This document shows positions 5,876 through 21,451 of a stretch of 37,853 bases of DNA, in pieces. Origin of the DNA: a virus; the IMG/VR virus record IMGVR_UViG_3300044732_003471, positions 1 through 37,853 of that record; one strand, given 5' to 3'. Position numbers and translations under genes: made by a program. Numbering within the stretch: position 1 is the first letter of the stretch; every line of letters begins with the position of its first letter. The notes beneath the pieces are model-generated. The model was not told the origin of the DNA, did no database searches, and was given only the letters and a program-made list of their open reading frames with translations.

Positions 5876-6202
5876 TGGTGGATGCGTGGAGGATCGAACT
5901 CCAGTCCATGACTTCTCGACAATATACTTCTACAATTTATTGATTGATATTAGGACAATCACAACCTAGATTGTTGTCGAGCAATCCCGCATAACATTTC
6001 GATGCTATGAGTCTATTATATTTTCGATATACAACTATCCGATCTTCCTCTGTGCCAACACGCTGCATCGGAGTCGGGGTGTTGGTGCGGTTATGCCGCG
6101 AGAGCTAGTGTATCTTTTTCGTTTTTCTCTTGCACTTATAGTCGTGCAGACTGTGCATTGCATATATTGCTTCAACAGTCATGTCGAAACCATGTCACAC
6201 CC
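5876..6202 (-). ncRNA. ssrA: tmRNA (ssrA), one-piece, complete
   Basis: 327 nt that rescue stalled ribosomes by trans-translation. The 5' end GGGTGTG pairs with the 3' strand CGCATCC, followed by A and an encoded CCA. Pair 3 is G3.U70 with A73, the alanine identity element. The 5' domain has GGTTTCGACATG, matching the tmRNA D-loop region (GGATTCGAC in E. coli). The T arm is TGGAG-TTCGATC-CTCCA. A tag frame at 6091-6135 ends in codons for LALAA then TAA. Helices CCAACAC/GTGTTGG and CTCGACAA/TTGTCGAG fall where pseudoknots and P2 are expected. The gene sits 11 nt from the FkbM gene and just before the uvsE promoter. Confidence 0.93.
6091..6135 (-). other. tmRNA proteolysis-tag reading frame
   Basis: Fourteen codons read VQEKNEKDTLALAA then TAA. 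The C-terminal ALAA is the canonical degradation signal for ClpXP-type proteases. Resume at GTG is inferred from the conserved A four bases upstream; the frame starting at the nearby GCA has no stop and is rejected. Confidence 0.75.
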
Positions 6203-9246: not shown

Positions 9247-12108
9247 TTAGTGTACTAATGCGAGATGCGTGATGCCTTTATATGATGAATTTACAACATA
9301 CCATTGCTCTGCATCAGATATATCTTTTGGAGATTCGAGTGCACCAATCTCAAGAAGATCTGTTCCCCATGCAACTGACACTGCTTTCCAGTCGCTGCCT
9401 AATTTTACATAAGACATAAGCTTGTCATGAGCAATTCGGTCAGAATCAGTCTTTGCAAGCATTTTATATGGGTCGAGTTGATAGAGTTCGCGGTCTTGAA
9501 TAAAGAAGATATATTTTCCTTTTACTGGAGTAATTTTAGCGGCTTCTTCAAGAGTCTCACCTTCGACTTCTGTGCCTTCGAAAATTGCATTATAGAGTGA
9601 CTCATAGTCACCAGCGTCTGCAAATTTTAATAGAGCTTTTTGTTTAGCACTATTCGCAGAAAGTGTAGAATCGAGCGCAGATGTTAAATTTCCCTTTGCT
9701 TTAAGCGGTTGGTAATTATGCGCCTTAAGTGAACCAACAATCAACTTTATGATTTGAGAATCAGTTAAACCAAGTTTTTTACCAAGAGCAAAGATATTTT
9801 CGTTGTACTTATCATTAGCTCCTTCTTCAAGAGTCTCACCTTGCACTTCAGTGTCTTCCATACGAATTGGACGCTTTGCATAGGCATCAGCTGCTGCAGA
9901 AATATGATCTGCTACTGCTGCCCATGCCTTTGCATTTGAATAAACACTTGTATTTTTATCTGGCATTCCAGGAGCATTTACTGGACGGCTCATATTAGAG
10001 ATGCCTTGCGCATTGTCTGCGAGTGCTTGTAAGAAAACTAAATAATCTTTAGGGCTCATTTCATCAATCTTGGCAATAAGCTTTTGTATTGCTGGTGTTG
10101 GAACAGCTTCTTCGAGTGTCTCTTCCTCCTTAACAAGATTTTTATAGACTCCACCTGGACCAGACAATTTACTGCCGGCTGGACGATACTTACCAAGTTT
10201 ATACTTTTTATTATAGTCATCACGACTCATAACACCAGCATTTACTCGGGCCATATCAACCTGCTTGCGGCGCTTTAGTGCCGCATCTGCTGCTTCATCC
10301 ATCTTTTCATCAGTCTCGCCCAACCAACCGAACAAGCCGTAGTCGTCGCTATCGCTGAAAGATGGACGATGATTCAAACCGAAAGTGCCATTGTGGTTTT
10401 TGTTTTTGTTTTTGTTTTCACGTTTATATGTACCAACAACCGGAACTTTAGGATCCCTGATGCCTTTTGCCTTTTGCTTGAGATAGTCTTCAGCATGATC
10501 CTTTGCCTCTTGTGGGGTATTATATGCAGCTGCAGATTGATACATAACTCTTTTAGTTTTCTTATCAAGTATAGTCGGACGATAGCCACCAAACTGACTC
10601 TTTTCAGAAGTAGTAAGATAGTCACCAAGCCAGTTGATTGCTTCATCAATTGTTTCTTCTTCGATGCTATCTTCTTTATAGACTGGATTGCTTCTCTGAG
10701 ATTTGTTGAGATCTGGATAATATTTGCGCACTGCTTCAATTGCTTTTTTAGCAATTTCTTTTGTCTTTTTAGCACCATTTGGTTGCATAATCTCAAACCA
10801 CATGTCTTCAACATAGTCATAAATCTTTGGAAAACGATCAAAAATATCTTCATGACTTAAACGAATAGACACACTTGTGACGTCCCAAAGTTTTGAATCT
10901 GGGGCGTCGACTATGCTTTGTAATTCGTCGATGAGGTCGGCTGGTTTGCGTAATGGCTTATATGCTTCATTAACACTCTTTAGACTTTGCTTGAGTTTGC
11001 CGAGCGTGGATGCATCACCAGTAATGATTCCAATAAGAGCCATAAATGTGCTTGCAATAAGATCTTTTTGTGATTGACTAATTGTCTTTCCAGACTCTAC
11101 TGCTTTCATTGCGGTAATAATCTTAGGCAACTCGCCAGAGTCGACAAGACCAAGAGTTGCAAGCTGTTTGAAACGAGTGTAGTCAGTCTCTTCTTCAAGT
11201 GATTCTTTGTTCAGTAAGTCTTTACCTTGTTTGATCCACTTTACATCACCTTTAGTATCATAGTAGGCTTCTTTTTCCGAATCATACGGACCTACAATAC
11301 GCGTACCAAAGTAAGCATACCATTTTTTTGGATCATACTTAGGGATTAAATCTTTTTCATTTATATTAGTGTTTGATAGATTGATGGTCAATTCAGTCTC
11401 TTCCTTTAATTTAATTGTCTTGAGAAGCAGAAATTCCGAGCTGCCCATCTTGCGTTGGTTAAACGCGATTGTTGTTTTTGGAAGATCTTTTGCCTTGAAT
11501 GTAATGCTGTTAGTCCCAATCTCTAGCACCTTGCCAAAGTTTGTAAGGTCGCCAACCTTTAGGGTGTCAACAATTGCCTTAACGTCTTCGACTCCTTCGT
11601 CAAGAGTTTCCACACTTTCACGAATGGTATTGTTATAGATGTCATTTATCAATGCATACTCATCATCGCTTAATAATGTTTTGAGACGTGCACTATAAGC
11701 TCTAACTAGCTTTTTACGCTCTTCGTTATTCTTTTTAGCTTCTTCTGTAGATTTTGATGAATAAGGAAAAGATTTAATTTGTGAAATAAGTTCTTTTGAT
11801 TTGCTGTCCTTTAAGATTTTATCAAGAGTACTTTTTAGAAGTTGTGCAGACTCCTTTGCGTCTCTTTCGTCTGCTTTATCTGAAAGATAATTTCTAAGAC
11901 GTTGCATTAACAACGCAGCTATGCCAATTCCTCCTCCAATTACTAATGCTGCTACAATATCAATAATGTCTTTTACATACATTGATTGGATAAGGTTCCA
12001 ATCAATTGCTTCGTCAAGAGTATCAGACTCTTGCAGTTGAGTTTTGCCAGTTAGAATTGCTGCAGCTGCAGCATACATCGGGTCTTGGTGATAGTGGAAG
12101 TTATTCAT
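9247..12108 (-). CDS. putative internal-head polyprotein with multiple (L/I)xE sites
   Basis: 953 residues. The N-terminus (MNNFHYHQDPMYAAAAAILTG) matches the leader of neighbouring genes and ends at LQE27. Further (L/I)xE sites followed by A, G or E occur at LDE33, LDE171, LEE306, IDE489, LEE667, LEE762 and LEE855, mostly in acidic linkers of the type (D/E)-x-ETLEE. They split the chain into segments of about 93-183 residues. Segment 34-171 has a membrane-like helix (51-67). Segment 307-489 carries a domain shared with the gene at 35140. Segment 668-762 carries a domain repeated in the gene at 13070. Segment 490-667 has an asparagine/lysine linker (562-572). T4 gp21 cuts at (L/I)xE, so processing inside the prohead is inferred. 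The late promoter is at 12118. Confidence 0.75.
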   Translation of the reverse strand: MNNFHYHQDPMYAAAAAILTGKTQLQESDTLDEAIDWNLIQSMYVKDIIDIVAALVIGGGIGIAALLMQRLRNYLSDKADERDAKESAQLLKSTLDKILKDSKSKELISQIKSFPYSSKSTEEAKKNNEERKKLVRAYSARLKTLLSDDEYALINDIYNNTIRESVETLDEGVEDVKAIVDTLKVGDLTNFGKVLEIGTNSITFKAKDLPKTTIAFNQRKMGSSEFLLLKTIKLKEETELTINLSNTNINEKDLIPKYDPKKWYAYFGTRIVGPYDSEKEAYYDTKGDVKWIKQGKDLLNKESLEEETDYTRFKQLATLGLVDSGELPKIITAMKAVESGKTISQSQKDLIASTFMALIGIITGDASTLGKLKQSLKSVNEAYKPLRKPADLIDELQSIVDAPDSKLWDVTSVSIRLSHEDIFDRFPKIYDYVEDMWFEIMQPNGAKKTKEIAKKAIEAVRKYYPDLNKSQRSNPVYKEDSIEEETIDEAINWLGDYLTTSEKSQFGGYRPTILDKKTKRVMYQSAAAYNTPQEAKDHAEDYLKQKAKGIRDPKVPVVGTYKRENKNKNKNHNGTFGLNHRPSFSDSDDYGLFGWLGETDEKMDEAADAALKRRKQVDMARVNAGVMSRDDYNKKYKLGKYRPAGSKLSGPGGVYKNLVKEEETLEEAVPTPAIQKLIAKIDEMSPKDYLVFLQALADNAQGISNMSRPVNAPGMPDKNTSVYSNAKAWAAVADHISAAADAYAKRPIRMEDTEVQGETLEEGANDKYNENIFALGKKLGLTDSQIIKLIVGSLKAHNYQPLKAKGNLTSALDSTLSANSAKQKALLKFADAGDYESLYNAIFEGTEVEGETLEEAAKITPVKGKYIFFIQDRELYQLDPYKMLAKTDSDRIAHDKLMSYVKLGSDWKAVSVAWGTDLLEIGALESPKDISDAEQWYVVNSSYKGITHLALVH

Positions 12109-12117: not shown

Positions 12118-12125
12118 TATTTATA
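12118..12125 (-). promoter_or_regulatory. T4-type late promoter
   Basis: TATAAATA on the minus strand, 10 bp before the polyprotein ATG and just beyond the stop of the gene at 12127. Confidence 0.75.
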
Positions 12126-12126: not shown

Positions 12127-12570
12127 TTAGTTTAGTTCGTTAATTTCTAATTTTTGATCGAAGGTTTTGAAATAGTATTTGCTGTCGCTGTGTTGCTTTG
12201 CAATCTCATAGACCTTTTCTGCAGACACTCTTGGGTTCGCGATGTGTGTTACGTCTTGACTATAGACATTAAAATAACTTTCGCCATCTTCTTTTTCGAT
12301 TGTATAGAATGTGGTCTTGGTAATCCATCCTTTGTTCGACTGCTTGAAAATCATAATAGCAATTGTGTCAGCGTCTTCTTGAGCTGCAGAAAATCCACCA
12401 TTTTTACCAAATACATGATTGTTTTTTGACTTTATCATTGCAGCACCCTTAGAAGCTTTAAGTTCTTTAAGGGCAGACGCATGCGATGCATCTTCTGTTA
12501 ATGATTCTCTGCCGAGTATCTTTGCTGCAGCAGCATACAACGGATCTTGGTTGTAATGAAAATTATTCAT
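12127..12570 (-). CDS. putative internal head protein with targeting leader
   Basis: 147 residues. The leader MNNFHYNQDPLYAAAAKILG is nearly identical to that of the polyprotein and is followed by ESLTED, with LTE26 as a possible prohead-protease site. The remaining roughly 120 residues look like a small alpha/beta domain (FGKNGGFSAAQEDADTIAIM, FYTIEKEDGESYFNVYSQ) with a helical C-terminus. A weak late promoter (AATAAATA, 12578-12585) precedes it. No family recognised. Confidence 0.65.
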   Translation of the reverse strand: MNNFHYNQDPLYAAAAKILGRESLTEDASHASALKELKASKGAAMIKSKNNHVFGKNGGFSAAQEDADTIAIMIFKQSNKGWITKTTFYTIEKEDGESYFNVYSQDVTHIANPRVSAEKVYEIAKQHSDSKYYFKTFDQKLEINELN

Positions 12571-12579: not shown

Positions 12580-13077
12580 TTATTCTGCTTCCTTTGTGCT
12601 CTCAATATAGTCACGAGCACTGACAACATATTCTTCTGCCTTTACAAGATTTGCTTGAACGTGCTCTGGTAAATTTTCGTCGTCGCTTAGCATGTCATGC
12701 AATCCTTTTGCGTTGCGAATGATTGTGCGAAGTGCGGTCTTTGCCATGCTGCCTTCAGCGTCATACTCGCCTGCGTCTTGTTCGGCAGCTTCCTTTACGT
12801 TTCCATACTGATACGAGACTGGAACACTTTCTCCATCTTTAAAAGTTTTTGCAGAAGCCTTTATAGAATTTAGTGCAGTTATAAGTGAGTTGATCTTTTT
12901 TGGATCAAAGTCACCACCGCGTTTTATTGAATCAACAAATTGTTGAAATGATTTGCTTAGCGTGTATAATTCATTGTTGATGACGTGTCCAGGCAAACGC
13001 ATAAAAGACTCTTGCAAGTCTTCGGGCTTGCCTTGAAGGATTCTTGTTGCTGCTTCTATAAGCGTGTTTTTATTCAT
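12580..13077 (-). CDS. putative internal head protein, helical
   Basis: 165 residues. The leader MNKNTLIEAATRILQG is followed by KPEDLQES, with LQE23 as a possible cleavage site. The remainder is helical and acidic (SFQQFVDSIKRGGDFDPKKI, VQANLVKAEEYVVSARDY). Its start overlaps the end of the gene at 13070 by eight bases, so it is probably coupled. It shares the leader layout of its neighbours but not their domains. Confidence 0.62.
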   Translation of the reverse strand: MNKNTLIEAATRILQGKPEDLQESFMRLPGHVINNELYTLSKSFQQFVDSIKRGGDFDPKKINSLITALNSIKASAKTFKDGESVPVSYQYGNVKEAAEQDAGEYDAEGSMAKTALRTIIRNAKGLHDMLSDDENLPEHVQANLVKAEEYVVSARDYIESTKEAE

Positions 13078-13639
13078 AACTGTTGTTTCTTTTTTTCCAA
13101 ATTTGGGCTGCTTTATAGATCAAGGCAGATATAGCGCTTGATTCTTTATAACCGGAACTTTCTCCTTCATCAAAATAACCATCAAGAGCAAATAAGAAGT
13201 CTTCTAGTTCATCTTCGTCTAGATTACGCACTGCTTCCATTGCCTTTTTAGTGAGTGGAAACTTAGCGGTATAATATTCCTGCAGCGTCTCACCTTCATC
13301 TTCAACACTTTCATTATAACCATACTTTTCACCAGTCTTTAATCCGCTTGCTGCTCTTGCTGCGTCATAGAGATGATCACTTATTTTTTTAATGACGCCT
13401 CTTGGATTGCCTTTGTGATCACGTGATGATGCATATTTTGTCATCTCATCCATATGATCGGCAAATGCAAGTAAAAATTCTTGCATTTGACTTCTATTTA
13501 GATTGTCAATTTCTGATAATAGGCGTTTTATAATTGCGCTCTGCGCTTCTTGAAGACACCCGTCATGAGTCTTGCCCTCCAGAATCGTTGCTGCAGCACT
13601 CACGAGAGAGTCATTTTTATAGTTGTCAAAGGCTTGCAT
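13070..13639 (-). CDS. putative internal head protein with duplicated domain
   Basis: 189 residues. The leader NDSLVSAAATILEG is followed by CLQEA (LQE31), and a second site GETLQE121 lies in an acidic linker. Residues 35-98 (IIKRLLSEIDNLNRSQMQEF ...) and 128-185 (LTKKAMEAVRNLDEDELEDF ...) are two copies of one helical domain. The same domain occurs in the polyprotein at about 672-745 (IQKLIAKIDEMSPKDYLVFL). A late promoter lies at 13647-13654. This gene looks like a two-unit version of the polyprotein plan. Confidence 0.65.
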   Translation of the reverse strand: MQAFDNYKNDSLVSAAATILEGKTHDGCLQEAQSAIIKRLLSEIDNLNRSQMQEFLLAFADHMDEMTKYASSRDHKGNPRGVIKKISDHLYDAARAASGLKTGEKYGYNESVEDEGETLQEYYTAKFPLTKKAMEAVRNLDEDELEDFLFALDGYFDEGESSGYKESSAISALIYKAAQIWKKRNNSYE

Positions 13640-13646: not shown

Positions 13647-13654
13647 TATTTATA
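13647..13654 (-). promoter_or_regulatory. T4-type late promoter (left-going of divergent pair)
   Basis: TATAAATA on the minus strand, eight bases before the ATG at 13639. Confidence 0.78.
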
Positions 13655-13693: not shown

Positions 13694-14152
13694 ATGAATA
13701 ATTTCACGTCATACAAAGAAGACCCATTGGTTTCTGCCGCTGCACATGTGTTGTCTCAAGAACAATTAAGCGAAGGCATCGTAACCTTTCCGAGCTATCG
13801 TGCCAAAGGCAAAGGCATCTACATTGGAAAAGATCTCATAAGCAAAGACGATCTTGGTTCATTTGTCGATACTGTAAACAGACAAGTAGACAAGTTTCCA
13901 CTCTTTGGAAAATATCTAGAAGTTCACTCTGGCTCTGACAGCATTCGTGGAGAGTGTGTTGGCTATGCTCATATTCATGGCGCGCCAATGCTACTCATTC
14001 GTGAGAGCAACTATAAAGAAGTATGGATCGATGCAGATCGTGCTCAACGGGAGATCTATGCATTTACTCCAGCGAAAAAAGAAGTCACTACAACCGGCAC
14101 CGGATCAAGTGATAATCCAATGCTTTACAGCTTTGGCAAGACTAACTATTAA
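13694..14152 (+). CDS. putative internal head protein with targeting leader
   Basis: 152 residues on the plus strand. The leader MNNFTSYKEDPLVSAAAHVL is followed by QEQLSEG (LSE27), the same plan as its divergent neighbour. The rest is a mixed alpha/beta domain (GKGIYIGKDLISKDDLGSFV, GYAHIHGAPMLLIRES) with a Thr/Gly-rich tail (KKEVTTTGTGSSDNP). Having its own late promoter on the opposite strand suggests inversion or independent capture. Function beyond head packaging cannot be read. Confidence 0.66.
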   Translation: MNNFTSYKEDPLVSAAAHVLSQEQLSEGIVTFPSYRAKGKGIYIGKDLISKDDLGSFVDTVNRQVDKFPLFGKYLEVHSGSDSIRGECVGYAHIHGAPMLLIRESNYKEVWIDADRAQREIYAFTPAKKEVTTTGTGSSDNPMLYSFGKTNY

Positions 14153-14154: not shown

Positions 14155-14238
14155 TGGTGGGCAAGGAGAGACTCGAACTCTCACGCATCACTGCACTAGA
14201 TCCTAAGTCTAGCGTGGCTACCATTACACCACTTGCCC
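14155..14238 (-). tRNA. tRNA-Leu (UAG)
   Basis: A class II cloverleaf with acceptor GGGCAAG/CTTGCCC, A73 and encoded CCA. The anticodon loop is CTTAGGA, giving UAG. It ends two bases from the convergent gene at 13694-14152. Confidence 0.92.
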
Positions 14239-14242
14239 AAAT

Positions 14243-14278
14243 AAAAAACGGAGCCAACATAAAGAAGGCTCCGTTTTT
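14243..14278. terminator. bidirectional terminator
   Basis: CGGAGCC/GGCTCCG stem flanked by A6 and T5. It separates the outer-membrane protein gene from tRNA-Leu. Confidence 0.85.
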
Positions 14279-14297
14279 GTTTTATATTCTTATAATA

Positions 14298-15026
14298 TTA
14301 GAATGTCTTCTTAAACTCAACCCCACCGAAGAAAAGATTCTTCATGTCTGAATGCACACCAACCGAGTCATCAAGACCAAGTGAGTATGAGACAAACGGA
14401 ACAGCGGTCACGCCTTGCACAACTGGAATGTCAGTCGATACAGTGGTCTCAAAGTGAGTGCACTGTCCTTCTTGAGCGAGATAGCCAAGCTCAGCGCGAA
14501 AGTCAAGCATCAATGAAGATCCAAAGTCATCACTGTATGTTGCAGCAAGTTCGCTATAAGCATTGTTATCACCCACAATACTCATATACTGAGTAAGCGA
14601 AAGATCGATTGGACCAACTGCACGTGATACAGTCAAGCCAGCTTCTTGCGCTTGTCCTTCCTGACCTACATAGTCTTGCGAATACCAGGTATAGCTCAAA
14701 GATACGAGATAGTCAGCAATCTCTTTCGAGAAGATTGCAGAGAGCTCAGTAGCTTCGTCCTTCCCAGTTGTTTCAGCGTTTGCATAGTCAGCGCTCAAAG
14801 CCAACGAAACGTCCGCAGGAAGTTCAGTTGTCGTTGTGACGATTGCATTTGCTTCATTTGCACCTAGATCAGCACCACGCCAGACCTTATCAGAAGAGTA
14901 GCCAGTTTCAAGCGTCACTGGCGTGAATGCTGAAGGAGCGTCTTCGATTGGGCCTGCATAGGCATAGTTAAGAGTAGCAAGTGCTGCAATAAGTCCGACT
15001 TTAACGATTTGTGTTTGTTTTTTCAT
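14298..15026 (-). CDS. outer-membrane beta-barrel, TorF/Gcw_chp-like putative porin
   Basis: 242 residues. A signal peptide (MKKQTQIVKVGLIAALATLNYAYA, written as two parts: basic start MKKQTQIVK, hydrophobic core, AYA cleavage site) is followed by alternating beta strands (TLETGYSSDKVWRGADLG, YLVSLSYTWYSQDY, SVGVHSDMKNLFFGGVEF) and a terminal Phe in KKTF, the usual assembly signal of outer-membrane proteins. The VWRG segment near the start is typical of TorF/Gcw_chp-type proteins. This is a host-type envelope protein carried by a phage. Roles in superinfection exclusion or permeability are guesses. It has its own terminator. Confidence 0.72.
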   Translation of the reverse strand: MKKQTQIVKVGLIAALATLNYAYAGPIEDAPSAFTPVTLETGYSSDKVWRGADLGANEANAIVTTTTELPADVSLALSADYANAETTGKDEATELSAIFSKEIADYLVSLSYTWYSQDYVGQEGQAQEAGLTVSRAVGPIDLSLTQYMSIVGDNNAYSELAATYSDDFGSSLMLDFRAELGYLAQEGQCTHFETTVSTDIPVVQGVTAVPFVSYSLGLDDSVGVHSDMKNLFFGGVEFKKTF

Positions 15027-15058
15027 ATTATATTATTTTTGTTTTTCAGGGGGAGAAG

Positions 15059-15133
15059 TGGTGGGGAGTGAGGGATTCAAACCCCCGGCCGACTCGGTGT
15101 AAACGAGATGCTCTATCGCTGAGCTAACTCCCC
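15059..15133 (-). tRNA. tRNA-Val (UAC)
   Basis: Acceptor GGGGAGT/ACTCCCC, A73, encoded CCA; D arm GCTC/GAGC; anticodon loop TTTACAC, giving UAC. The T loop is TTTGAAT, with U at the usual C56. Confidence 0.9.
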
Positions 15134-15153
15134 ATAAAAGTATCTATATGTGT

Positions 15154-15243
15154 TGGCGGAACGTGTAGGATTTGAACCTACGGTAGAGTTGCCCCTACAT
15201 TTCCTTAGCAGGGAAACACTTTCGACCACTCAGTCAACGTTCC
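15154..15243 (-). tRNA. tRNA-Ser (GCU)
   Basis: Class II with a long variable arm, G73 and encoded CCA. Acceptor GGAACGT/ACGTTCC; anticodon arm TTTCC-CTGCTAA-GGAAA, giving GCU. Confidence 0.92.
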
Positions 15244-15248
15244 AAAAA

Positions 15249-15338
15249 TGGCGGGTGAAGTAGGATTTGAACCCACGGTGACCTTTCAGCCACTCTTGTT
15301 TTCAAGACAAGTGCAATAAACCGCTCTGCCATTCACCC
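15249..15338 (-). tRNA. tRNA-Ser (UGA)
   Basis: Class II, G73, encoded CCA. Acceptor GGGTGAA/TTCACCC; anticodon arm CTTGT-CTTGAAA-ACAAG, giving UGA. It lies five bases from tRNA-Ser (GCU). Confidence 0.92.
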
Positions 15339-15349
15339 AAAAAATTTAT

Positions 15350-15559
15350 TTATAACTCATCAACGATGATGTCCTTAGCTAACTCCTGATTTAATGCCAA
15401 TCGTATGCCACATGTTGAGCAGACAATATTTTTTCCTTCGCGGGTTTTTGTGATATGTGTGTTTTCACAAAAACCCATATCACGAAGTCGAGCACATTCG
15501 ACCCCTTGAACTTTGCATATTATAGCAGTATGATTGCATGGCAATTCACATAGATTCAT
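15350..15559 (-). CDS. FeoA-like small SH3 domain protein
   Basis: 69 residues with the layout of FeoA domains: AIICKVQGVECARLRDMGFC (12-31, the family's 'RLxxLGF' strand-turn), a middle strand, and IRLALNQELAKDIIVDEL (52-69) matching the closing 'xLALxxxxAxxIxV' segment. It carries extra cysteines (positions 4, 8, 15, 23, 31, 47, 50), which might bind metal. Host FeoA acts with the FeoB iron transporter; no FeoB is present here, so it may act on the host system or be an unrelated SH3 adaptor. A late-like TATAAATC precedes it. Confidence 0.55.
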   Translation of the reverse strand: MNLCELPCNHTAIICKVQGVECARLRDMGFCENTHITKTREGKNIVCSTCGIRLALNQELAKDIIVDEL

Positions 15560-15567
15560 AATAAGAT

Positions 15568-16365
15568 TTATAAGCCGTCAGACAGGTCATAGATGCGATT
15601 CGAAACATCAACTGACTTGTCTTTCATAAGTGTTTTGGAAAGTGTGCTGTTGTATGACAGCAGCAGTGCAATCGCAAGTGGATCAAACACAGCGATGATT
15701 ATGCATATAAAGGCCATTACGATTGTATCGAGCGGCAGATTAAACTGATCGGCAATAAACTTAAACGTTCCAATGTCTTTTGATGCCGACATCTTGAGTT
15801 TTAGCTCTTGTATTTGTGTGTCAAGCTCTCTCTTGCTGTCTTGCAGTTGAACTATTCTCTCGCGCTGTGCCTGCATTTCAGCCGCTGTTCTTTCAATGTC
15901 AGCATAGATTGGTCGTGCATTTGCCGCAGACATCTTTGGCAAGCGTTCTTCTTGTGAGCGCCGCGCGGCGTTTAGTGTCTCTATTCGTGAGTTGATTTGT
16001 GAGACTTCAGAGTCGATGCCGCTCTTACGTTCTTGAAGAGACCCAACCTGGGAGTCGATGTTAGAAAATTGTATTGAGTTTACAGCATAGGCAGACGATA
16101 GATAACCAAAAATACCGAGTGAAGTTATACACATGAGTATGAGTGTAGCTGTGACGAGATAGCCTTTTAAGAGTGCTGATGTATGCGTCCAATAGTGATG
16201 CAAATAGGTCGTCGCCACAAGTTTGCCAATCTCTAGTGCACTCGCCATGATGAGCACTGAAACATAGCTGCCACTAAAGAGTGTAGCAATGCCGAGTACT
16301 GAAAACCATGCGGCACATCCAGCTACAAGTAGGCTCGTAATGAATAGCAGTGCACGTAAAACCAT
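15568..16365 (-). CDS. membrane protein with central coiled coil
   Basis: 265 residues. Four hydrophobic segments lie in residues 1-95 (LLFITSLLVAGCAAWFSVLG, LIMASALEIGKLVATTYLHH, LLKGYLVTATLILMCITSLG ...). A long coiled coil occupies about 100-195 (SQVGSLQERKSGIDSEVSQI, MQAQRERIVQLQDSKRELDT), and a C-terminal membrane helix lies near 215-240 (IVMAFICIIIAVFDPLAIAL). Similar membrane/coil proteins occur in marine T4-like phages without known function. The exact late promoter at 16373-16380 suggests a late role, possibly at the envelope. Confidence 0.72.
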   Translation of the reverse strand: MVLRALLFITSLLVAGCAAWFSVLGIATLFSGSYVSVLIMASALEIGKLVATTYLHHYWTHTSALLKGYLVTATLILMCITSLGIFGYLSSAYAVNSIQFSNIDSQVGSLQERKSGIDSEVSQINSRIETLNAARRSQEERLPKMSAANARPIYADIERTAAEMQAQRERIVQLQDSKRELDTQIQELKLKMSASKDIGTFKFIADQFNLPLDTIVMAFICIIIAVFDPLAIALLLSYNSTLSKTLMKDKSVDVSNRIYDLSDGL

Positions 16366-16372
16366 GTCATAG

Positions 16373-16380
16373 TATTTATA
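16373..16380 (-). promoter_or_regulatory. T4-type late promoter
   Basis: TATAAATA on the minus strand, eight bases before the ATG at 16365 and directly after the 3' end of the intron-containing tRNA. Confidence 0.78.
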
Positions 16381-16381
16381 A

Positions 16382-16664
16382 TGGTGGGCCCGGCAGGATT
16401 CGAACCTGCGACCAATCGATTATGCTTACCACTATAGTTTTCACTACCTTTTCAGTTTGTGGTCTGGACTATCCCTTAATCTTCAGCATAACCTGTTAAG
16501 ATTGAACTATTATAGTCTCTGCACGTCCCTCTTTCGAGGTTTCGCTCAGGATTGGCATCGGCATTACCCGTTAAGCGTTCCCTGAATTTAAGTTCTGCTA
16601 ACTTACTATTTCTAATAAGAAGACCCTATCGAGTCGACTGCTCTTACCGCTGAGCTACAAGCCC
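16382..16664 (-). tRNA. tRNA-Ile2 (CAU) interrupted by a group I intron
   Basis: The 5' exon is 16632-16664 and the 3' exon 16382-16424, with encoded CCA. The spliced acceptor is GGGCTTG/CGGGCCC with A73. The anticodon arm is GTCGA-CTCATAA-TCGAT. The exons closely match bacterial tRNA-Ile2 (anticodon flanks CGACTCATAATCG and TTGGTCGC), so lysidine-modified Ile decoding AUA is more likely than Met. The intron sits between U33 and C34. Confidence 0.85.
16425..16631 (-). ncRNA. group I intron (IC3-like) in tRNA-Ile2
   Basis: 207 nt. P1 pairs exon GACT with intron GGTC, giving the U.G splice-site pair. Core strings are visible: AATCCTGAGC (P4/Q-like), GCAGAGACTATA (R) and GATAGTCCAGA (S), with a final G before exon CATAA. 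Size and core resemble the 205-nt Azoarcus intron. There is no internal reading frame. Confidence 0.85.
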
Positions 16665-16670
16665 CTTTCA

Positions 16671-16856
16671 TTATAAAACTGGTCCGTTTCCTTTTTGTTC
16701 GTGATCTATGTATTGCCCAATATGTTGTTGAACATTCAGCGATCGACGAAATGATTCATGCTCAAGTTTGGCTATTCGCTCTCTAAGTTCATTCATCTCA
16801 GAGAGTAGCGCTTCTACTTCGGCGTCAATCAAACTTTTAATATGTTCTGTATTCAT
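16671..16856 (-). CDS. hypothetical 61-aa coiled-coil protein
   Basis: The start is set at ATG 16856 (MNTEHIKSLIDAEVEALLSE); upstream is tRNA sequence. A heptad-rich helix covers residues 5-40 (EMNELRERIAKLEHESFRR). The gene is wedged between two intron-bearing tRNAs, with only six bases to tRNA-Ile2. Function unknown. Confidence 0.5.
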   Translation of the reverse strand: MNTEHIKSLIDAEVEALLSEMNELRERIAKLEHESFRRSLNVQQHIGQYIDHEQKGNGPVL

Positions 16857-16869
16857 AATTTTTTTAAGA

Positions 16870-17155
16870 TGGTAGCTGTGGTCGGACTCGAACCGACAAG
16901 CCGAAGCAACGGATTTTCTTACCACTATAGTTTTCACTACCATTTCTGTTTGTGGTCTGGACTATACCTTGATCATAGTATCGCTACATTAGATCCCTGC
17001 CGTCTAGTCTCTACACCTTCCTAATTTCTTAGGCTTGGCTCGGGATTAGCATTTTAAAGCCTTCACCGAATTTGACAAGTTCTACTCCTGTTTTTTCAAA
17101 CAAGGCACTCAAATTTCTCTAAGTCCGCAATGTTTACCAATTTCATCACACAGCC
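16870..17155 (-). tRNA. tRNA-Leu (UAA) interrupted by a group I intron
   Basis: The 5' exon is 17121-17155 and the 3' exon 16870-16917, with CCA. The spliced anticodon arm is GCGGA-CTTAAAA-TCCGT, giving UAA. The intron lies between U34 and A35, the same position as the classic cyanobacterial and plastid tRNA-Leu(UAA) intron. The first ten bases of the tRNA also encode the last codons of the upstream HNH gene. Confidence 0.88.
16918..17120 (-). ncRNA. group I intron in tRNA-Leu (UAA)
   Basis: 203 nt. P1 pairs exon ACTT with GAGT inside TTTGAGTGCC. Core strings: AATCCCGAGCC, GTGTAGAGACTAGACGG, GGTATAGTCCAGA; it ends GTGGTAAG. The 3' third is nearly identical to the intron in tRNA-Ile2, showing recent common origin. 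No internal reading frame. Confidence 0.88.
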
Positions 17156-17601
17156 ATAATTTTTTTAATATTTTTTCCTCTATATGTATCAGTTTGAGAA
17201 TGACAGTTTGGACAAAGCATCCTAAGATTTCCTAAAGAATGATCATGTCTTATACCATTTATATGGTCTAATTCACAATTTATTTTGTCGCCATCCCATT
17301 CACTTATACTACATTTAGAACATTTGTTTTCAAAAATTTTTTCTTTAAGTAACCTTTGTTTTAATTTAAAAGTTTGGTAGTATGGATACTTTCCATCTAG
17401 TATTTCCGTTAAACTAATTAGTTTTGAGATATTTCGGGTCTTTTTACCTCCCTTAGCGCCCTGATTGGGTCTATATAAACCAAAAGATTCTGCTTTACGT
17501 TTAAATGTTGAAAAATGTAAATTTAATTTGATTGAAGCTTCTCGCATTGTATTAGAAGAATCAATCGCGTCCTTTATTGTATCGTATGAAATGATAAACA
17601 T
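17146..17601 (-). CDS. HNH homing endonuclease, stop codon inside tRNA-Leu
   Basis: The start is set at ATG 17601 (MFIISYDTIKDAIDSSNTMR), right after a TATAAATA box that lies inside the longer frame. The 151-residue protein has an N-terminal helix-turn-helix-like segment (10-60) and an HNH/zinc site: CSKCSISEWDG ... INCELDHINGIRHDHSLGNL ... LCPNCHS. The last codons ATG-GCT-GTG-TGA are also the first bases of tRNA-Leu(UAA). A free-standing homing enzyme beside an intron-bearing tRNA suggests it mobilises the intron or the locus. Confidence 0.82.
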   Translation of the reverse strand: MFIISYDTIKDAIDSSNTMREASIKLNLHFSTFKRKAESFGLYRPNQGAKGGKKTRNISKLISLTEILDGKYPYYQTFKLKQRLLKEKIFENKCSKCSISEWDGDKINCELDHINGIRHDHSLGNLRMLCPNCHSQTDTYRGKNIKKIMAV

Positions 17602-17606
17602 ATAGA

Positions 17607-17614
17607 TATTTATA
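17607..17614 (-). promoter_or_regulatory. T4-type late promoter of HNH gene
   Basis: TATAAATA on the minus strand, six bases before the chosen ATG at 17601. It decides the start codon. Confidence 0.7.
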
Positions 17615-17743
17615 AAAATAGTGTTTACCATAGTCATAATTTTAGAAAATTTAGAGGTTGTCGACGAGATGTTTGTTCGACTTTAGGGACCTCATGCTCC
17701 TGTAAGCGATACCACCACAGTACCGAAATTTTATTTATTAGTT

Positions 17744-17818
17744 TGGCGGGCATACTAGGATTCGAACCTAGGCGAAGGATTTAGAAGACCCTGATGCTAT
17801 CCATTACATCATATGCCC
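17744..17818 (-). tRNA. tRNA-Arg (UCU)
   Basis: Acceptor GGGCATA/TATGCCC, G73, encoded CCA. Anticodon arm AGGGT-CTTCTAA-ATCCT, giving UCU. Confidence 0.92.
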
Positions 17819-17826
17819 GAGTGTTT

Positions 17827-18030
17827 TCATATTGGTACGCCGTCATATGTGTCGACAACGATGTCATGCTGCTTAAGAAGACGAACCGCGCTGTCACGTT
17901 TATGTTTGCTGTTCCAGAAAAGCTCAAGTTCTGCAGCATCAACATCATAATAGGTATGAATGTCGCTTAATGTCATTGCTTCCATATAGCAATCAGAAGT
18001 ATGAAATACAATTGAATATCTAGTTTTCAT
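17827..18030 (-). CDS. hypothetical 67-aa protein
   Basis: Begins MKTRYSIVFHTSDCYMEAMT. A strand-helix-strand plan with an aromatic, acidic middle (IHTYYDVDAAELELFWNSKH) and a basic helix (KRDSAVRLLKQHDIVVDTYD). It is in the three-gene unit driven by promoter cassette C. No family recognised. Confidence 0.6.
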   Translation of the reverse strand: MKTRYSIVFHTSDCYMEAMTLSDIHTYYDVDAAELELFWNSKHKRDSAVRLLKQHDIVVDTYDGVPI

Positions 18031-18036
18031 GTTGTC

Positions 18037-18312
18037 TTAGTCGATGAGTGAATACCATTGGTTTTCAGTGTCACAAAAGAAAATATAACTGAAAATATAA
18101 CTTGAACCTTCATGATGCTTCTCTTTATAAGAGAGTTCTTCATATCGCATAAAGTGTCCAAACTCACCTGGTGACATGGTCGAAAAGACACCCGATTCAA
18201 ACTCAATCTCTACCGAGTCCTTTAAAAAAGAGATTTGCTTGATTGTCTCTTCATTTTGATAGCCGTGAGAGCCATGCCTTACTTTCTTGCCAATTGATTC
18301 AGTGATAGTCAT
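18037..18312 (-). CDS. hypothetical 91-aa protein
   Basis: Begins MTITESIGKKVRHGSHGYQN. Beta-rich (ISFLKDSVEIEFESGVFSTM) with an aromatic C-terminus (SSYIFSYIFFCDTENQWYSL). It may be a small SH3-like barrel as in the other early genes. Preceded by a copy of the AGGAACACTAATAA junction motif. Function unknown. Confidence 0.6.
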   Translation of the reverse strand: MTITESIGKKVRHGSHGYQNEETIKQISFLKDSVEIEFESGVFSTMSPGEFGHFMRYEELSYKEKHHEGSSYIFSYIFFCDTENQWYSLID

Positions 18313-18345
18313 ATAAAGATGTGGTGGTGTTTATTAGTGTTCCTA

Positions 18346-18543
18346 TTACCAGTGAGTGTATTCTTTGATGATACCCTCTTCATTCAGATAGCGAGCACAT
18401 GTATAAGCCTGAACGCAGCTATCATCACATGTCTCGAAAACATGAAACTTATCTTGCAACTCATACATAGCTTCGAGATACAATCTGCATGCTTCTTTTG
18501 CAGAGTCTAAGTTAGGATGGACATCGTTGGGTGGCATGGTCAT
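18346..18543 (-). CDS. hypothetical 65-aa early protein
   Basis: The start is set at ATG 18543 (MTMPPNDVHPNLDSAKEACR); a second ATG two codons on is possible. The longer open frame merely runs through the promoter cassette. Two helices, with cysteines in a CDDSCVQAYTCARYL segment. It is the first gene downstream of promoter cassette C, with leader CATGTAAGCAACAAAGAAC and the AACACCAATACAATAAGAGT motif. Confidence 0.6.
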   Translation of the reverse strand: MTMPPNDVHPNLDSAKEACRLYLEAMYELQDKFHVFETCDDSCVQAYTCARYLNEEGIIKEYTHW

Positions 18544-18582
18544 ACTCTTATTGTATTGGTGTTCTTTGTTGCTTACATGATC

Positions 18583-18627
18583 ATTATACACTAAAATGCA
18601 GAGAAAGTACACAACTTTTTTCAAAAA
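18583..18627 (-). promoter_or_regulatory. early promoter, cassette copy C, with palindrome
   Basis: -10 TATAAT (18583-18588), 17-bp spacer, -35 TGTACT (18606-18611) on the minus strand; palindrome ACTTTTTTCAAAAAAGT just upstream. Nearly identical over about 90 bp to copy D at 25157. Confidence 0.86.
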
Positions 18628-18661
18628 AGTGAAAAAAGGTCCCGAAGTTAAGCCCCGTATA

Positions 18662-18685
18662 GAGAAAAACTGACCTCCGAGGTCA
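18662..18685 (-). terminator. terminator at end of tRNA array segment
   Basis: TGACCTC-C-GAGGTCA inverted repeat followed on the minus strand by GTTTTTCTC. It lies immediately upstream of promoter cassette C. Confidence 0.6.
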
Positions 18686-18689
18686 CAAT

Positions 18690-18802
18690 TTTGTGAAAAT
18701 TTGCCCATGACAGATTGCTGCTACACTCACCCAGGGCTGGGGCTAGCTAGGAACCACACCTAGCTGCGTCATGACATATTTGGATTCGCGCATGATACGA
18801 AT
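18690..18802 (-). other. hairpin-rich non-coding segment
   Basis: No gene fits. On the minus strand it holds AGCTAGG-TGTGGTT-CCTAGCT, a perfect 7-bp hairpin with a seven-base loop, then CCCAG/CTGGG. It may be the 3' trailer of the tRNA transcript. Confidence 0.4.
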
Positions 18803-18871
18803 TGCGAGGGGGAGGGCTTTAACCTCCTCTCTAGACTATGGGCCTAGCGATCTCCGTATGATCCCTCTCGC
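18803..18871 (-). tRNA. divergent tRNA-Met-like (CAU?), no encoded CCA
   Basis: Acceptor GCGAGAG/CCCTCGC with one mismatch; D arm GATC-ATACGGA-GATC; anticodon arm CTAGG-CCCATAG-TCTAG; T arm GGAGG-TTAAAGC-CCTCC. CAU would be the anticodon, but position 33 is C instead of U, and CCA is not encoded. It could be the elongator tRNA-Met missing from the array, or a decaying tRNA. Confidence 0.5.
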
Positions 18872-18884
18872 AAAGTATTTTCCC

Positions 18885-19045
18885 CACTACCGAATAATTG
18901 ACCAGAGTCAACTTGAAGAAACGCAGTGACTATTTCATCTTGGTAGCGACTCCAAGCCTAGTTTAATTTGCGTCGGATTACATTCGGCGTCATCGGGTTG
19001 CCAACCCGCTCTTAGCCTCAATGCTCATTGTAGGATCATCGCCTA
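18885..19045 (-). ncRNA. structured RNA segment of unknown type
   Basis: Successive perfect hairpins on the minus strand: CATTGTAGG/CCTACAATG (9 bp), CGGGTT/AACCCG, CTTGG/CCAAG and TTGAC/GTCAA. This is denser than expected for a spacer. No match to tRNA, RNase P RNA or 6S RNA signatures was seen. Confidence 0.4.
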
Positions 19046-19056
19046 CAATGGCAGGG

Positions 19057-19163
19057 AAAAATTGGTGGGGTTATTCTCATGTCATTTAACCTTGCGCTGT
19101 CTAGTGTGCACCCATCAAGCGTAGAGGGTATGAAGAGAATCGAAGCCGCTAAGCTTCACCCCA
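19057..19163 (-). ncRNA. tRNA-sized element ending in CCA, not a cloverleaf
   Basis: The 5' GGGGT pairs with the 3' ACCCC before A-CCA; an inner stem ATTCTC/GAGAAT follows. There is no T arm with the TTC signature. It may be a remnant or a tRNA-like RNA processed with the array. Confidence 0.3.
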
Positions 19164-19166
19164 AAT

Positions 19167-19240
19167 TGGTGCGTCATGTGAGGGTCGAACTCACGCCTTC
19201 AGAGTGGAAGTCTAATGTGCTGCCGTAACACTTATGACGC
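19167..19240 (-). tRNA. tRNA-Gly (UCC)
   Basis: Acceptor GCGTCAT/ATGACGC, A73, encoded CCA. Anticodon arm TTAGA-CTTCCAC-TCTGA, giving UCC. Confidence 0.92.
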
Positions 19241-19248
19241 GAAAAGTT

Positions 19249-19674
19249 TTAACGTCTGATCAGGTCAGACACAGCACGTGTCATTTTACCAATGTCAGCC
19301 ATTGTTGGAAAGACACTGTTCGGGCTGTCGCCACCTCTAATTGAGAGGATTGGCTTGTGTGTGCCGGTTTTGGCGAGTGCTATATTGCCGCGAATATAGT
19401 CATCAGCACCCATCTTGCCCATGCTCATGGTGAGCGTATACTCTTGTCCACCAATCTCAAATGAGACACCAGTATAGCCAGAGTCGAAAAATTTGGCGTG
19501 TGTGATTGACCCACGGGGTGTGTCGGCAGAATTTAAAATTGCTTGCAGATAATCTTGAATGCTTTCTGGAACAGACCGTCCAAAGCCAGTGACTGGTGCA
19601 ATAGCGACCTTTTCGAGAATTTGCTTTGCAGCTTCAACTAATGGATCTGAACATGGAGAATTAAATGCATTCAT
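19249..19674 (-). CDS. putative internal head protein with targeting leader
   Basis: The start is set at ATG 19674 (MNAFNSPCSDPLVEAAKQIL), six bases after a TATAAATA box that the longer frame would translate. 141 residues. The leader has the DPLVxAAxxIL pattern of the head-gene cluster at 9-14 kb, with ILE21 as a possible protease site. The body is beta-rich (HAKFFDSGYTGVSFEIGGQE, YTLTMSMGKMGADDYIRGN). It is a lone member of the family stranded inside the tRNA array. Confidence 0.65.
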   Translation of the reverse strand: MNAFNSPCSDPLVEAAKQILEKVAIAPVTGFGRSVPESIQDYLQAILNSADTPRGSITHAKFFDSGYTGVSFEIGGQEYTLTMSMGKMGADDYIRGNIALAKTGTHKPILSIRGGDSPNSVFPTMADIGKMTRAVSDLIRR

Positions 19675-19679
19675 ACTAC

Positions 19680-19687
19680 TATTTATA
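19680..19687 (-). promoter_or_regulatory. T4-type late promoter
   Basis: TATAAATA on the minus strand, six bases before ATG 19674. It decides that start. Confidence 0.78.
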
Positions 19688-19816
19688 TGATACATTAAAA
19701 ATATATGAAGAGCTTACGCAGGCATACTTGTCATATTAACCCGAAGGCGTGAACCTAATCACCTATGTGCATCACCACTCTTCTTGAGCTCGGTTGCAAA
19801 ATTACTTATACAAAGA

Positions 19817-19902
19817 TGGTGGGCAGTCTGGGTAACGATCCCAGCGAGCTTTTAAGCGTCGGTTTTACAGACCGAACCGTCTCCTTAACGGCATACCTAC
19901 CC
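19817..19902 (-). tRNA. tRNA-Tyr (GUA)
   Basis: Class II with long variable arm CGCTTAAAAGCTCG; A73, encoded CCA. Anticodon arm TCGGT-CTGTAAA-ACCGA, giving GUA. The T loop is ATCGTTA, in which the usual T54/A58 pair is swapped to A54/T58. The acceptor (GGGTAGG/ACTGCCC) has one mismatch. Confidence 0.82.
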
Positions 19903-19905
19903 ATT

Positions 19906-19982
19906 TAGCAATGTATGGTTATTGACCCACACGGAATCTCAAGCCTTATGCGCATTTAACTCACCGATTGTCATTGCTAAAA
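19906..19982 (-). ncRNA. tRNA-sized structured spacer
   Basis: TTAGCAATG and CATTGCTAA form a 9-bp terminal stem enclosing about 60 nt, with an inner GTGTGG/CCATAC arm and an eight-base loop. No anticodon arm can be assigned. It lies between tRNA-fMet and tRNA-Tyr. Confidence 0.35.
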
Positions 19983-19984
19983 AT

Positions 19985-20064
19985 TGGTTGCGGGGGTGGG
20001 AGTCGAACCCACACCGAAGCCTAGCTTATGAGACTAGTTCAGCACCACTACTGACTGCCCCGCG
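19985..20064 (-). tRNA. initiator-type tRNA-fMet (CAU)
   Basis: The acceptor CGCGGGG/CCCCGCA is the same as that of E. coli tRNA-fMet, including the C1.A72 mismatch that marks initiators; A73 and CCA are encoded. D arm TCAG/CTGA; anticodon arm CTAGT-CTCATAA-GCTAG; T arm GTGGG-TTCGACT-CCCAC. It lacks the three G-C pairs usual in initiator anticodon stems, so initiator function is likely but not certain. Confidence 0.83.
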
Positions 20065-20069
20065 ATTGA

Positions 20070-20187
20070 AAATTGAGCCGACTAAAGAGGCGACATAGAC
20101 ACATTCCCGTACGCACCCGCATATGCAGTCCTGCACGTCATCTGCGCCTATGTACCGGGCATGGAGCCCGTGCACCTCTCTAGCGGC
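20070..20187 (-). ncRNA. structured RNA segment of unknown type
   Basis: Ends GCCGCTAGAGAGG and CCTCTTTAGTCGGC form a 13-bp stem with one bulge. Inside are CGGGC-TCCAT-GCCCG, ACATAG/CTATGT and TGCA/TGCA arms, suggesting a multi-way junction. It lies between tRNA-Gln and tRNA-fMet. No known family recognised. Confidence 0.45.
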
Positions 20188-20192
20188 AAAGT

Positions 20193-20267
20193 TGGTAGAG
20201 GTACAAGGATTCGAACCTCGACAAACAGAATCAAAATCTGTGGTGCTAACCGTTACACTATACCTCT
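20193..20267 (-). tRNA. tRNA-Gln (UUG)
   Basis: Acceptor AGAGGTA/TACCTCT, A73, encoded CCA. Anticodon arm ACAGA-TTTTGAT-TCTGT, giving UUG. Confidence 0.92.
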
Positions 20268-20268
20268 A

Positions 20269-20343
20269 TGGCACGTCACCACAGATTCGAACTGTGACAA
20301 AAGGTTTTGGAGACCTTTGTGCTTACCGTTACACCAATGACGT
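20269..20343 (-). tRNA. tRNA-Trp (CCA)
   Basis: Acceptor ACGTCAT/GTGACGT, G73, encoded CCA end. Anticodon arm AAGGT-CTCCAAA-ACCTT, giving CCA. Confidence 0.92.
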
Positions 20344-20348
20344 AAAAA

Positions 20349-20424
20349 TGGGGTGATCGACGGGACTCGAACCCGCAACAACCAGAATCACAATCTGGGG
20401 CTCTACCATTGAACTACAACCACC
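20349..20424 (-). tRNA. tRNA-His (GUG)
   Basis: The extra G-1 pairs with C73, the tRNA-His hallmark; acceptor GTGGTTG/CGATCAC; CCA encoded. Anticodon arm CCAGA-TTGTGAT-TCTGG, giving GUG. Confidence 0.93.
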
Positions 20425-20432
20425 AATTAAAA

Positions 20433-20508
20433 TGGTGGAGGCAATAGGGCTCGAACCTATGACTCATTCCTTAAAAGGGAATTACTCTACCAACTGAGTT
20501 ATGCCTCC
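20433..20508 (-). tRNA. tRNA-Lys (UUU)
   Basis: Acceptor GGAGGCA/TGCCTCC, A73, encoded CCA. Anticodon arm ATTCC-CTTTTAA-GGAAT, giving UUU. Confidence 0.93.
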
Positions 20509-20516
20509 AATTAAAA

Positions 20517-20594
20517 TGGTGGACCTGGTGAGAATCGAACTCATCATTTCACAGATTCCTTGCAAAGGATTCCGGCTGCCCACAGCTCAGGCCC
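20517..20594 (-). tRNA. tRNA-Ala (UGC)
   Basis: Acceptor GGGCCTG/CAGGTCC with the G3.U70 alanine identity pair, A73 and encoded CCA. Anticodon arm AATCC-TTTGCAA-GGAAT, giving UGC. The first eight bases also encode the last codons and stop of the HNH gene upstream. Confidence 0.9.
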
Positions 20595-21318
20595 CATATT
20601 TAATATCCCAAATTTGTATTTTTTCTAAAAGTTGTGCTAATGCCAACGAGCATTTTGTATGTTTTGAAACATTATCATTATGGCGCAATAGCATGCAATT
20701 AGCAGGATGCGATATAATCTTTGGATCAATATTGTTTTCGTAACCATATTTTACAGATATCATATGATCACGAGATACACCATTTAGATTATCTCCACGA
20801 TTTTTTGGAAGATACCATCCATATTTTTCTACAAGAGAAAAATCAAATTCAAGTGGATATTTTTTTAACGAAAAATTAAAAGCACATTCATTTCTATATC
20901 TTTTATAGTCATCCCAATTTCTTTTTCTATATTCTAAAATACATTTTTTGGAGCAATATTTTTTGCGTTTACCAGAAAATGATGTATTACAACACAGACA
21001 AGTATTGGTATTGTCTTTTAATAATTTTGCTCTAACCTTTGTTTTAAAATCTTCTGATCGTGGCCCACGAGCATTTGCACAACTTCTAGAACAAAATAAA
21101 TTCGGCGGAGGTGTTTGACCTTCTTTATATTTAACAGAAAATGTGTTGTTGCATTTTTTACAATTTCTTTCCAATGATAATATATTAGTTGAGGCTACTC
21201 GTTTTTTCCAATTATTTCTATCTGGATTTTTTTCACACCACCTAATATGATTAGCAAAAAGAGAAGTACTTAATGAAAATGACTCGTTGCAGTGTTTACA
21301 TGTTTTCAAACCATCCAT
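20587..21318 (-). CDS. HNH homing endonuclease, stop codon inside tRNA-Ala
   Basis: 243 residues. Several zinc-binding CxxC modules: CKHCNESF (7-14), CKKCNNTF, CSRSCANA, CLCCNTSFSGKRKKYCSKKC. An HNH-like end follows: GVSRDHMISVKYGYENNID ... SHPANCMLLRHNDNVSK. This matches phage homing endonucleases that read flanking DNA with zinc fingers. It is AT-rich versus the tRNAs. It has an exact late promoter at 21324-21331, and its TGA stop lies in GGGCCTGA, the 5' end of tRNA-Ala. Confidence 0.82.
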   Translation of the reverse strand: MDGLKTCKHCNESFSLSTSLFANHIRWCEKNPDRNNWKKRVASTNILSLERNCKKCNNTFSVKYKEGQTPPPNLFCSRSCANARGPRSEDFKTKVRAKLLKDNTNTCLCCNTSFSGKRKKYCSKKCILEYRKRNWDDYKRYRNECAFNFSLKKYPLEFDFSLVEKYGWYLPKNRGDNLNGVSRDHMISVKYGYENNIDPKIISHPANCMLLRHNDNVSKHTKCSLALAQLLEKIQIWDIKYGA

Positions 21319-21323
21319 AAATC

Positions 21324-21444: not shown

Positions 21445-21451
21445 TAAAATA

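Follow-up and report, generated by a model that had tools for sequence, protein, structure and literature searches.

A probable prohead-core cargo polyprotein in T4-like environmental phages, built of exchangeable cassettes with candidate protease sites at their joints

The IMG/VR virus record IMGVR_UViG_3300044732_003471 (positions 1 to 37,853, all 37,853 nucleotides (nt) of which are referred to here as the window) carries on its minus strand a 953-amino-acid (aa) open reading frame (ORF) with an ATG start at 9247-12108. Its product appears to be a chain of small domains, or cassettes, joined at candidate cut sites of the T4-type prohead protease gp21. An earlier sequence-only reading had proposed this ORF without naming its strand, and we find the ORF to be real. 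The protein begins with a leader (aa 1-33; 12010-12108) that holds two candidate cuts, LQE27/S and LDE33/A (a slash marks the cut throughout), and resembles the leader of five other genes in the window. The leader is followed, on the same strand, by D1 with its long hydrophobic stretch (aa 34-171; 11596-12009), the small beta domain D2 (aa 172-236; 11401-11595), D3 (aa 237-306; 11191-11400), D4 (aa 307-381; 10966-11190), D5 (aa 382-489; 10642-10965), D6 (aa 490-605; 10294-10641), the basic D7 (aa 606-667; 10108-10293), D8 (aa 668-762; 9823-10107), D9 (aa 763-855; 9544-9822) and D10 (aa 856-953; 9250-9543). Neither PHROGs nor Pfam above its cut-off gave a family for the protein, so that T4_CASP, MPTase and other polyvalent-protein domains were not recognised by these searches; tblastn against 50,697 phage records returned nothing at 1e-5, and PDB gave no match. 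For nine other modular proteins Pfam yielded a single match, below the cut-off.

All eight glutamates that the sequence-only reading had picked as cut sites (E27, E33, E171, E306, E489, E667, E762 and E855) lie in [LI]xE, and to them we add positions 605 (MDE/A) and 381 (VNE/A). The bare [LI]xE motif occurs 17 times in the protein against 11.2 in shuffled sequences, a count reached by 4% of 2000 shuffles. The excess is larger for [LIM]xE[AGS] (10 against 2.7, matched by 0.1% of the shuffles) and larger again for E[ST][LIM]xE[AGE] (6 against 0.03, matched by none of them). The short motif is thus poor evidence and the extended one lies beyond chance. The sites are unevenly placed, with gaps of 6 to 318 aa between strict sites where regular spacing had been claimed, and they mark off about ten cassettes of 62-138 aa rather than the seven domains of 93-183 residues first counted. 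One could still suppose that (L/I)xE is simply common and that length differences between relatives are random indels, as the weak enrichment of the bare motif would allow. Such an account is very improbable in view of the extended motif and, as described below, of where the indels end, of exact repeats that encode the sites and of homologous cassettes in other genes.

A scan of viral_contigs for the 953-aa gene gave 12 loci, and orthologues were read out from L004, L005, L006, L007, L009, L010, L011 and L013 (L and G numbers are our own labels for relatives). They measure 953 aa (L004), 818 aa (L005, L011), 716 aa (L010), 698 aa (L006), 687 aa (L007, L009) and at least 611 aa in L013, which is cut off. 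These six length forms represent four cassette architectures, since the 716, 698 and 687 forms hold the same cassettes and differ in smaller indels and in about 30 aa close to where D6 ends, a stretch lacking in G003, G006 and G007. D1 is missing from the 818 and 611 forms (the orthologues of G001, L005 and L013), and D3 together with D4 is missing from the 687, 698, 716 and 611 forms, D3 being absent for instance from G003, G005 and G006. In the 818 form, as in G001, a different domain occupies the D3 position. D9 is confined to the window and L004 among the orthologues read. A further domain, Dx, follows D6 and precedes D7 in the 818 form, and in L013 it comes after D2; L013 additionally carries a cassette that we call Dy and two further domains. 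Four of nine non-redundant indels between orthologues both start and end at strict sites (to within 8 aa), where 0.16 were expected. We also considered an assembly artefact, as repeats of 21-25 nt may collapse, and rejected it: the reading frames of the inserted cassettes are open, homologues of several of them exist elsewhere, and two of the forms recur in separate contigs (the 818-aa form in L005 and L011, the 687-aa form in L007 and L009).

At the DNA level, four gained cassettes, in the window, G001, G007 and a G003 gp22 gene, are bounded by exact direct repeats of 21-25 nt that encode the site itself. The window's D9 lies between two copies of a 21-nt repeat on the minus strand, one at the D8/D9 junction (9822-9842, encoding GETLEE/G) and one at the D9/D10 junction (9543-9563, encoding GETLEE/A). 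Dx is bounded by a 21-nt repeat encoding DEKMDE in G001 and by a 22-nt repeat encoding EETLDE/A in L013 (G007). A cassette of about 104 aa is present in the G003 gp22 and missing from the G001 gp22, with a 25-nt repeat encoding KKMTE/A and flanks that are 94-98% identical; a second difference between the two, about 84 aa present in G001, has no long repeat. Counting exact repeats of at least 15 nt whose copies lie at least 90 nt apart, all three repeat pairs in six polyprotein genes encode a site at both ends (0.07 expected), as do 14 of 27 repeats in 49 non-redundant genes that contain Dy (0.68 expected); among the latter L147 is once more the G007 gene, and L112 alone contributes three. In 429 other ORFs of the Dy loci the count is 3 of 22 (0.48 expected), two of the three being polyproteins themselves. 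Gain or loss of cassettes is also seen between closely similar alleles. The L201 and L202 gp22 genes, with flanks 99.0 and 95.3% identical, differ in one 113-aa segment where a 14-nt repeat starts at the site Glu, and the L190 polyprotein holds 71 aa more than that of L189, with a 15-nt repeat encoding ELEE/A. L189 in turn has a 54-aa tandem duplication relative to L190, the longest repeats of which do not encode a site.

The cassettes are not restricted to the polyprotein. The sequence-only reading had stated that two domains exist in other genes, and this is borne out for D8, which recurs in a 189-aa leader protein (13070-13639, minus strand) and a 173-aa protein of G003, and for D4, which recurs at the end of a 380-aa modular protein (35140-36282, minus strand). 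Its placing of these genes in a head region finds no counterpart, as no gp20-gp24 was seen within the window. Dy, from L013, is found in a 293-aa modular protein (36279-37160, minus strand) and is widespread. D2 recurs in the small leader proteins L182 and L187, in the other polyproteins L188-L190, and in L191 and L192, which are gp22 scaffolds by Pfam T4_CASP (1.3e-61 and 1.8e-56); L193, with D2 in a cut ORF that starts like L191, was left out of the gp22 count. D9 matches the G003 gp22 (BLAST E 2.7e-6, in a small set). We surveyed gp22 further in the best 80 of at least 140 relatives: there L199 carries D4, L203 carries D2 and a D9-like stretch (E 4e-4), L198 (5' end cut) carries a module of a G003 leader protein, four further ORFs hold only modules defined from gp22 itself, and 73 of the 80 match no module profile. 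The part before the conserved gp22 region measures 90-339 aa (median 139) in the 75 ORFs with a 5' end. As a separate observation, L187 (5896-6636) encodes a two-module leader protein whose second module matches DUF5856 (E 5.3e-08, just under the Pfam cut-off) and, weakly, Dps (E 0.3), a possible DNA-binding or ferritin-like cargo.

In T4, gp22 is the classical prohead-core substrate of gp21 (PMC9026906), so cassettes inside gp22 should enter the core. According to the same source, several fragments arise from each of T4 gp22, gp67 and a third core protein, and most of these are removed; multi-site cutting by gp21 is therefore in itself already known. These facts also lend weight to the main rival to a cargo role, namely that the polyprotein is a degradable core filler, an extra scaffold or core protein like T4 gp67 or gp22, whose cassettes set the size or charge of the core and whose gp21 fragments mostly leave the head undelivered. 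The presence of D2, D4 and D9 inside gp22 itself is what such a filler would lead one to expect, but it would have no need for such a variety of cassettes, and these are conserved, distinct sequences under purifying selection: the ratio of nonsynonymous to synonymous change (dN/dS) is below 0.5 for D1, D2, D4, D5, D7, D8 and D10, the cassettes with enough synonymous differences. D2 is moreover modelled as a compact domain (mean pLDDT, the model confidence score, 85.6) with 20 invariant columns among 13 sequences, and the two-module leader protein with its DUF5856 and weak Dps matches also speaks for cargo. We therefore consider a discarded filler unlikely. Foldseek returned nothing for D2 at E 0.001 or better; its top matches, an MscS beta domain (E 0.04) and four viral cytidyltransferase models (E 0.1-0.4), are a lead only.

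The protease that would make the cuts is found in relatives. Peptidase_S77 was detected on three of nine relative contigs searched, and Gp23 on the same three; in G001, about 80 kb of the contig separate gp21-gp23 from the polyprotein gene. The columns of T4 gp21 His85 and Ser140, which we take to be the catalytic residues, are invariant in five sequences (T4, G001, G003, Melnitz and HTVC008M). The capsid protein maturation site follows the same L-x-E rule, as FLTE65/A of T4 aligns with YLAE/G in G001 and G003, FLSE/A in Melnitz and FLGE/I in HTVC008M; no LxE is present at the aligned site of the G002 gp23. The T4 gp23 loses a 65-residue propeptide (PMC9026906). In G002, the contig of L007, two regions (59027-62581 and 124792-126855) hold between them a polyprotein of the window's group and gp21-gp23 of a different type; either this is a separate phage that has the cluster in common with the others, or the contig is chimeric.

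We then asked what the junctions themselves prefer, using acidic windows of the form E-x(1-2)-P3-[DEQ]-E in the Dy set, in which the proteins are related and the counts hence not independent. P3 is L, I or V in 120 of 213 windows (33.7 expected); with such a P3, P1 is Glu in 120 cases (26.1 expected) and Asp in 12 (20.7 expected), and P1' is Ala in 37 (11.5 expected). In 92 other G001 ORFs of at least 200 aa there is no such preference, with 12 motif matches against 8.0 in shuffled sequences. The depletion of Asp and preference for Glu at P1, the aliphatic P3 and the Ala at P1' are not expected of a generic acidic linker. They consequently argue against a one-piece multidomain protein in which the acidic segments would serve as flexible linkers and recombination joints and at most the leader would be removed, as do the absence of the pattern from the 92 other ORFs and the shared L-x-E of the capsid protein. 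That the linkers are acidic, and that the broad-set BLAST breakpoints considered below are only mildly site-specific, fits a one-piece protein, and multidomain conflict proteins delivered as one chain are known (polyvalent proteins; PMC5512222). On balance we think it improbable, and somewhat more so than a discarded filler.

The leader and the promoter connect the gene to a wider set. The leader helix follows the pattern xDPxYAAAAxIL...L(Q/T)E, and every one of the window's six leader genes has one or more [LI]xE ending at aa 14-31, compared with 22% of 174 G001 ORFs (at least 120 aa) with [LI]xE ending at aa 15-32. Besides the 953-aa gene and the 189-aa protein with the D8 paralogue, they encode a 147-aa protein (12127-12570, minus strand; LTE26/D), a 165-aa protein (12580-13077, minus strand), whose C-terminal module is joined to the D8 paralogue in the 173-aa protein of G003, a 152-aa protein on the opposite strand (13694-14152, plus strand; LSE27/G) and a 148-aa protein (19249-19695, minus strand), the start of which is probably at 19674. 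A second class of leader, MKSFKEYITEA-like and presumably akin to the T4 capsid targeting sequence, is seen in genes at 45846-48908 of G001 and 33374-33688 of the window. Nine nucleotides before the start codon of the 953-aa gene is a TATAAATA box (12118-12125, minus strand), a sequence match to what we take to be the T4-type late promoter motif; late transcription of the gene is proposed from this match and not from expression. The window holds 16 such boxes against 3.2 expected. Boxes ending 4-10 nt before start codons account for 8 of 16 in the window (for example 12118-12125, 13647-13654 and 16373-16380), 26 of 50 in G001 and 15 of 29 in G003, and for 2 of 25 in Melnitz, 6 of 21 in HTVC008M and none of 7 in a 12-kb piece of T4. 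Boxes this close suggest leaderless late mRNAs in this phage group, taking the T4 motif and its spacing to the transcription start as a guide.

Taken together our results favour, with a probability of roughly 0.65, a role of the 953-aa protein as a leader-targeted cargo polyprotein of the prohead core of a T4-like phage, cut by gp21 into cassettes. The late promoter box would drive the gene and the N-terminal helix would target its product to the core, by analogy with the T4 capsid targeting sequence. There a gp21-type S77 protease, very probably the enzyme involved, would cut after Glu in the acidic L/I/M-x-E/A or G junctions. The cuts would release the leader and about ten small domains within the head, where these would be packaged alongside the DNA before, probably, being ejected. 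Since the DNA of a junction can be a direct repeat, exchange at it would be in frame and keep the cut site, and recombination at such repeats would insert or remove whole cassettes. This gene, the small leader proteins and the scaffold gp22, in its N-terminal part, have cassettes in common. We infer the cutting, the presence of the cassettes in virions and their ejection into the host, and likewise what each cassette does and by which route it recombines. The prohead-protease polyprotein of the sequence-only reading is in this respect upheld by the presence and absence of cassettes at sites, the site-coding repeats, the sharing with gp22, the capsid sites and the conserved gp21 homologue; its pieces may be delivered into the host or discarded as core filler.

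Several observations weigh against the cargo polyprotein. Five of the nine indels fail the strict two-site rule, in part because the gaps slide or because the D3 and D4 junctions read LEE/E and VNE/A, and none of D1, D3, D3b and D4 is flanked by an exact repeat that reaches 15 nt. Broad-set BLAST breakpoints fall near [LIV]xE[AGS] 1.4 times as often as random positions (0.168 against 0.117) and those of other ORFs at the same loci score 1.9 times; this mild signal is not particular to the Dy set and is not used as support. Change points in silent differences are found inside cassettes as well as at sites (by codon, for example, 608, 669 and 240 lie near the sites at 605, 667 and 236, and 61, 73 and 332 lie elsewhere). 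The full-length AlphaFold model, with a mean pLDDT of 39.2, is too poor to place domain borders. The internal proteins of T4 are basic, unlike the cores of D3, D4, D5 and D10, which are acidic or neutral. No gp21 was seen in the window, it was found only on the three of nine relative contigs, and the gp21-gp23 of G002 are of another type.

Among known systems, the internal proteins IPI-IPIII and Alt of T4 resemble the window protein in having an N-terminal leader followed by L/I-x-E, a late promoter box and, in the relatives here, a gp21-type protease, but in T4 each leader carries one protein whereas here about ten domains follow one leader. By eye the leader looks of another type than the T4 capsid targeting sequence. 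With T4 gp22, gp67 and gp68 the protein shares several L/I-x-E sites per chain, and gp22 of relatives shares some of its cassettes; it differs from them in lacking T4_CASP, in lying far from gp21-gp23 in G001 and in its exchangeable conserved domains. To our knowledge DarA and DdrB of phage P1 have no repeated site-delimited cassettes, their likeness to the proposed polyprotein being cleavage and head packing. Both are cleaved and packed into the head according to PMC5512222 (Iyer et al. 2017). That source also describes the polyvalent proteins of phages and conjugative elements as mosaic chains of 2-15 domains that are presumed to come apart into units. The 953-aa protein likewise holds several distinct domains in one chain of mosaic architecture; it differs in having no recognised enzyme domains and in that its cutting would fall to a separate capsid protease, and not to an embedded MPTase as proposed for the polyvalent proteins. 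In the giant phage SPN3US, nine head proteins are substrates of the capsid protease (gp245), which acts after A-x-E and has more than one site in some propeptides, but 13 of its 14 sites remove N-terminal propeptides and cassette exchange is not described in the available part of the source (PMC10052503).

Other features of the window are recorded here. A cytidyltransferase-type protein at its edge (37141-37851) adjoins the two modular proteins, and in cyanophage P-TIM68 a 1006-aa modular protein stands beside the cytidyltransferase. A cytidylyltransferase (T4-GC190) was found in virions of cyanophage S-SM1 (PMC3037559), and the position of the window's protein next to two modular proteins fits packaging without being proof of it. 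Judged by the G001 capsid protein, Pelagibacter phage HTVC008M and Methylophilales phage Melnitz stand closest among named phages, at about 57% identity. A tmRNA gene (5876-6202, minus strand; Rfam 81.8 bits), for which ARAGORN gives an unusual long tag, has an annotated counterpart in Melnitz. Eighteen tRNA genes are clustered at 14155-22913 (minus strand), and there are two group I introns (16936-17130 and 22190-22378, minus strand), the first beside an ORF (17146-17637) that is HNH-like by eye and the second close to a partial tRNA match (22058-22114) that may represent a tRNA split by the intron. There is also an abiF RNA match (25296-25332, minus strand; Rfam RF03085, 47.1 bits) and an ORF (14298-15026, minus strand) that looks by eye like an outer-membrane beta-barrel protein with a signal peptide.

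Leaders, multi-site cutting of core proteins by gp21 and multidomain delivered proteins are each known separately. For their combination with protease-site DNA as the exchange joint and with scaffold-borne cassettes we found no description in open-licence PMC full text, and the cassette system is wide and apparently undescribed in T4-like environmental phages. Whether it is a general cargo system seems to us an evenly balanced question: site-bounded domains would move among polyproteins, leader proteins and gp22, the DNA of the site would serve as the recombination joint, and one maturation event would free many proteins for the host. If this is true, the capsid maturation protease also processes a mosaic polyprotein and a cargo-bearing scaffold, and the carriage and exchange of many head proteins by T4-like environmental phages at small genome cost would have an explanation. 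A set of unknown proteins, with 97 viral_contigs stretches for one cassette alone, would become a testable class; phage cargo could be predicted by a rule at the sequence level, and nature would offer a design by which several proteins can be loaded into one phage head.

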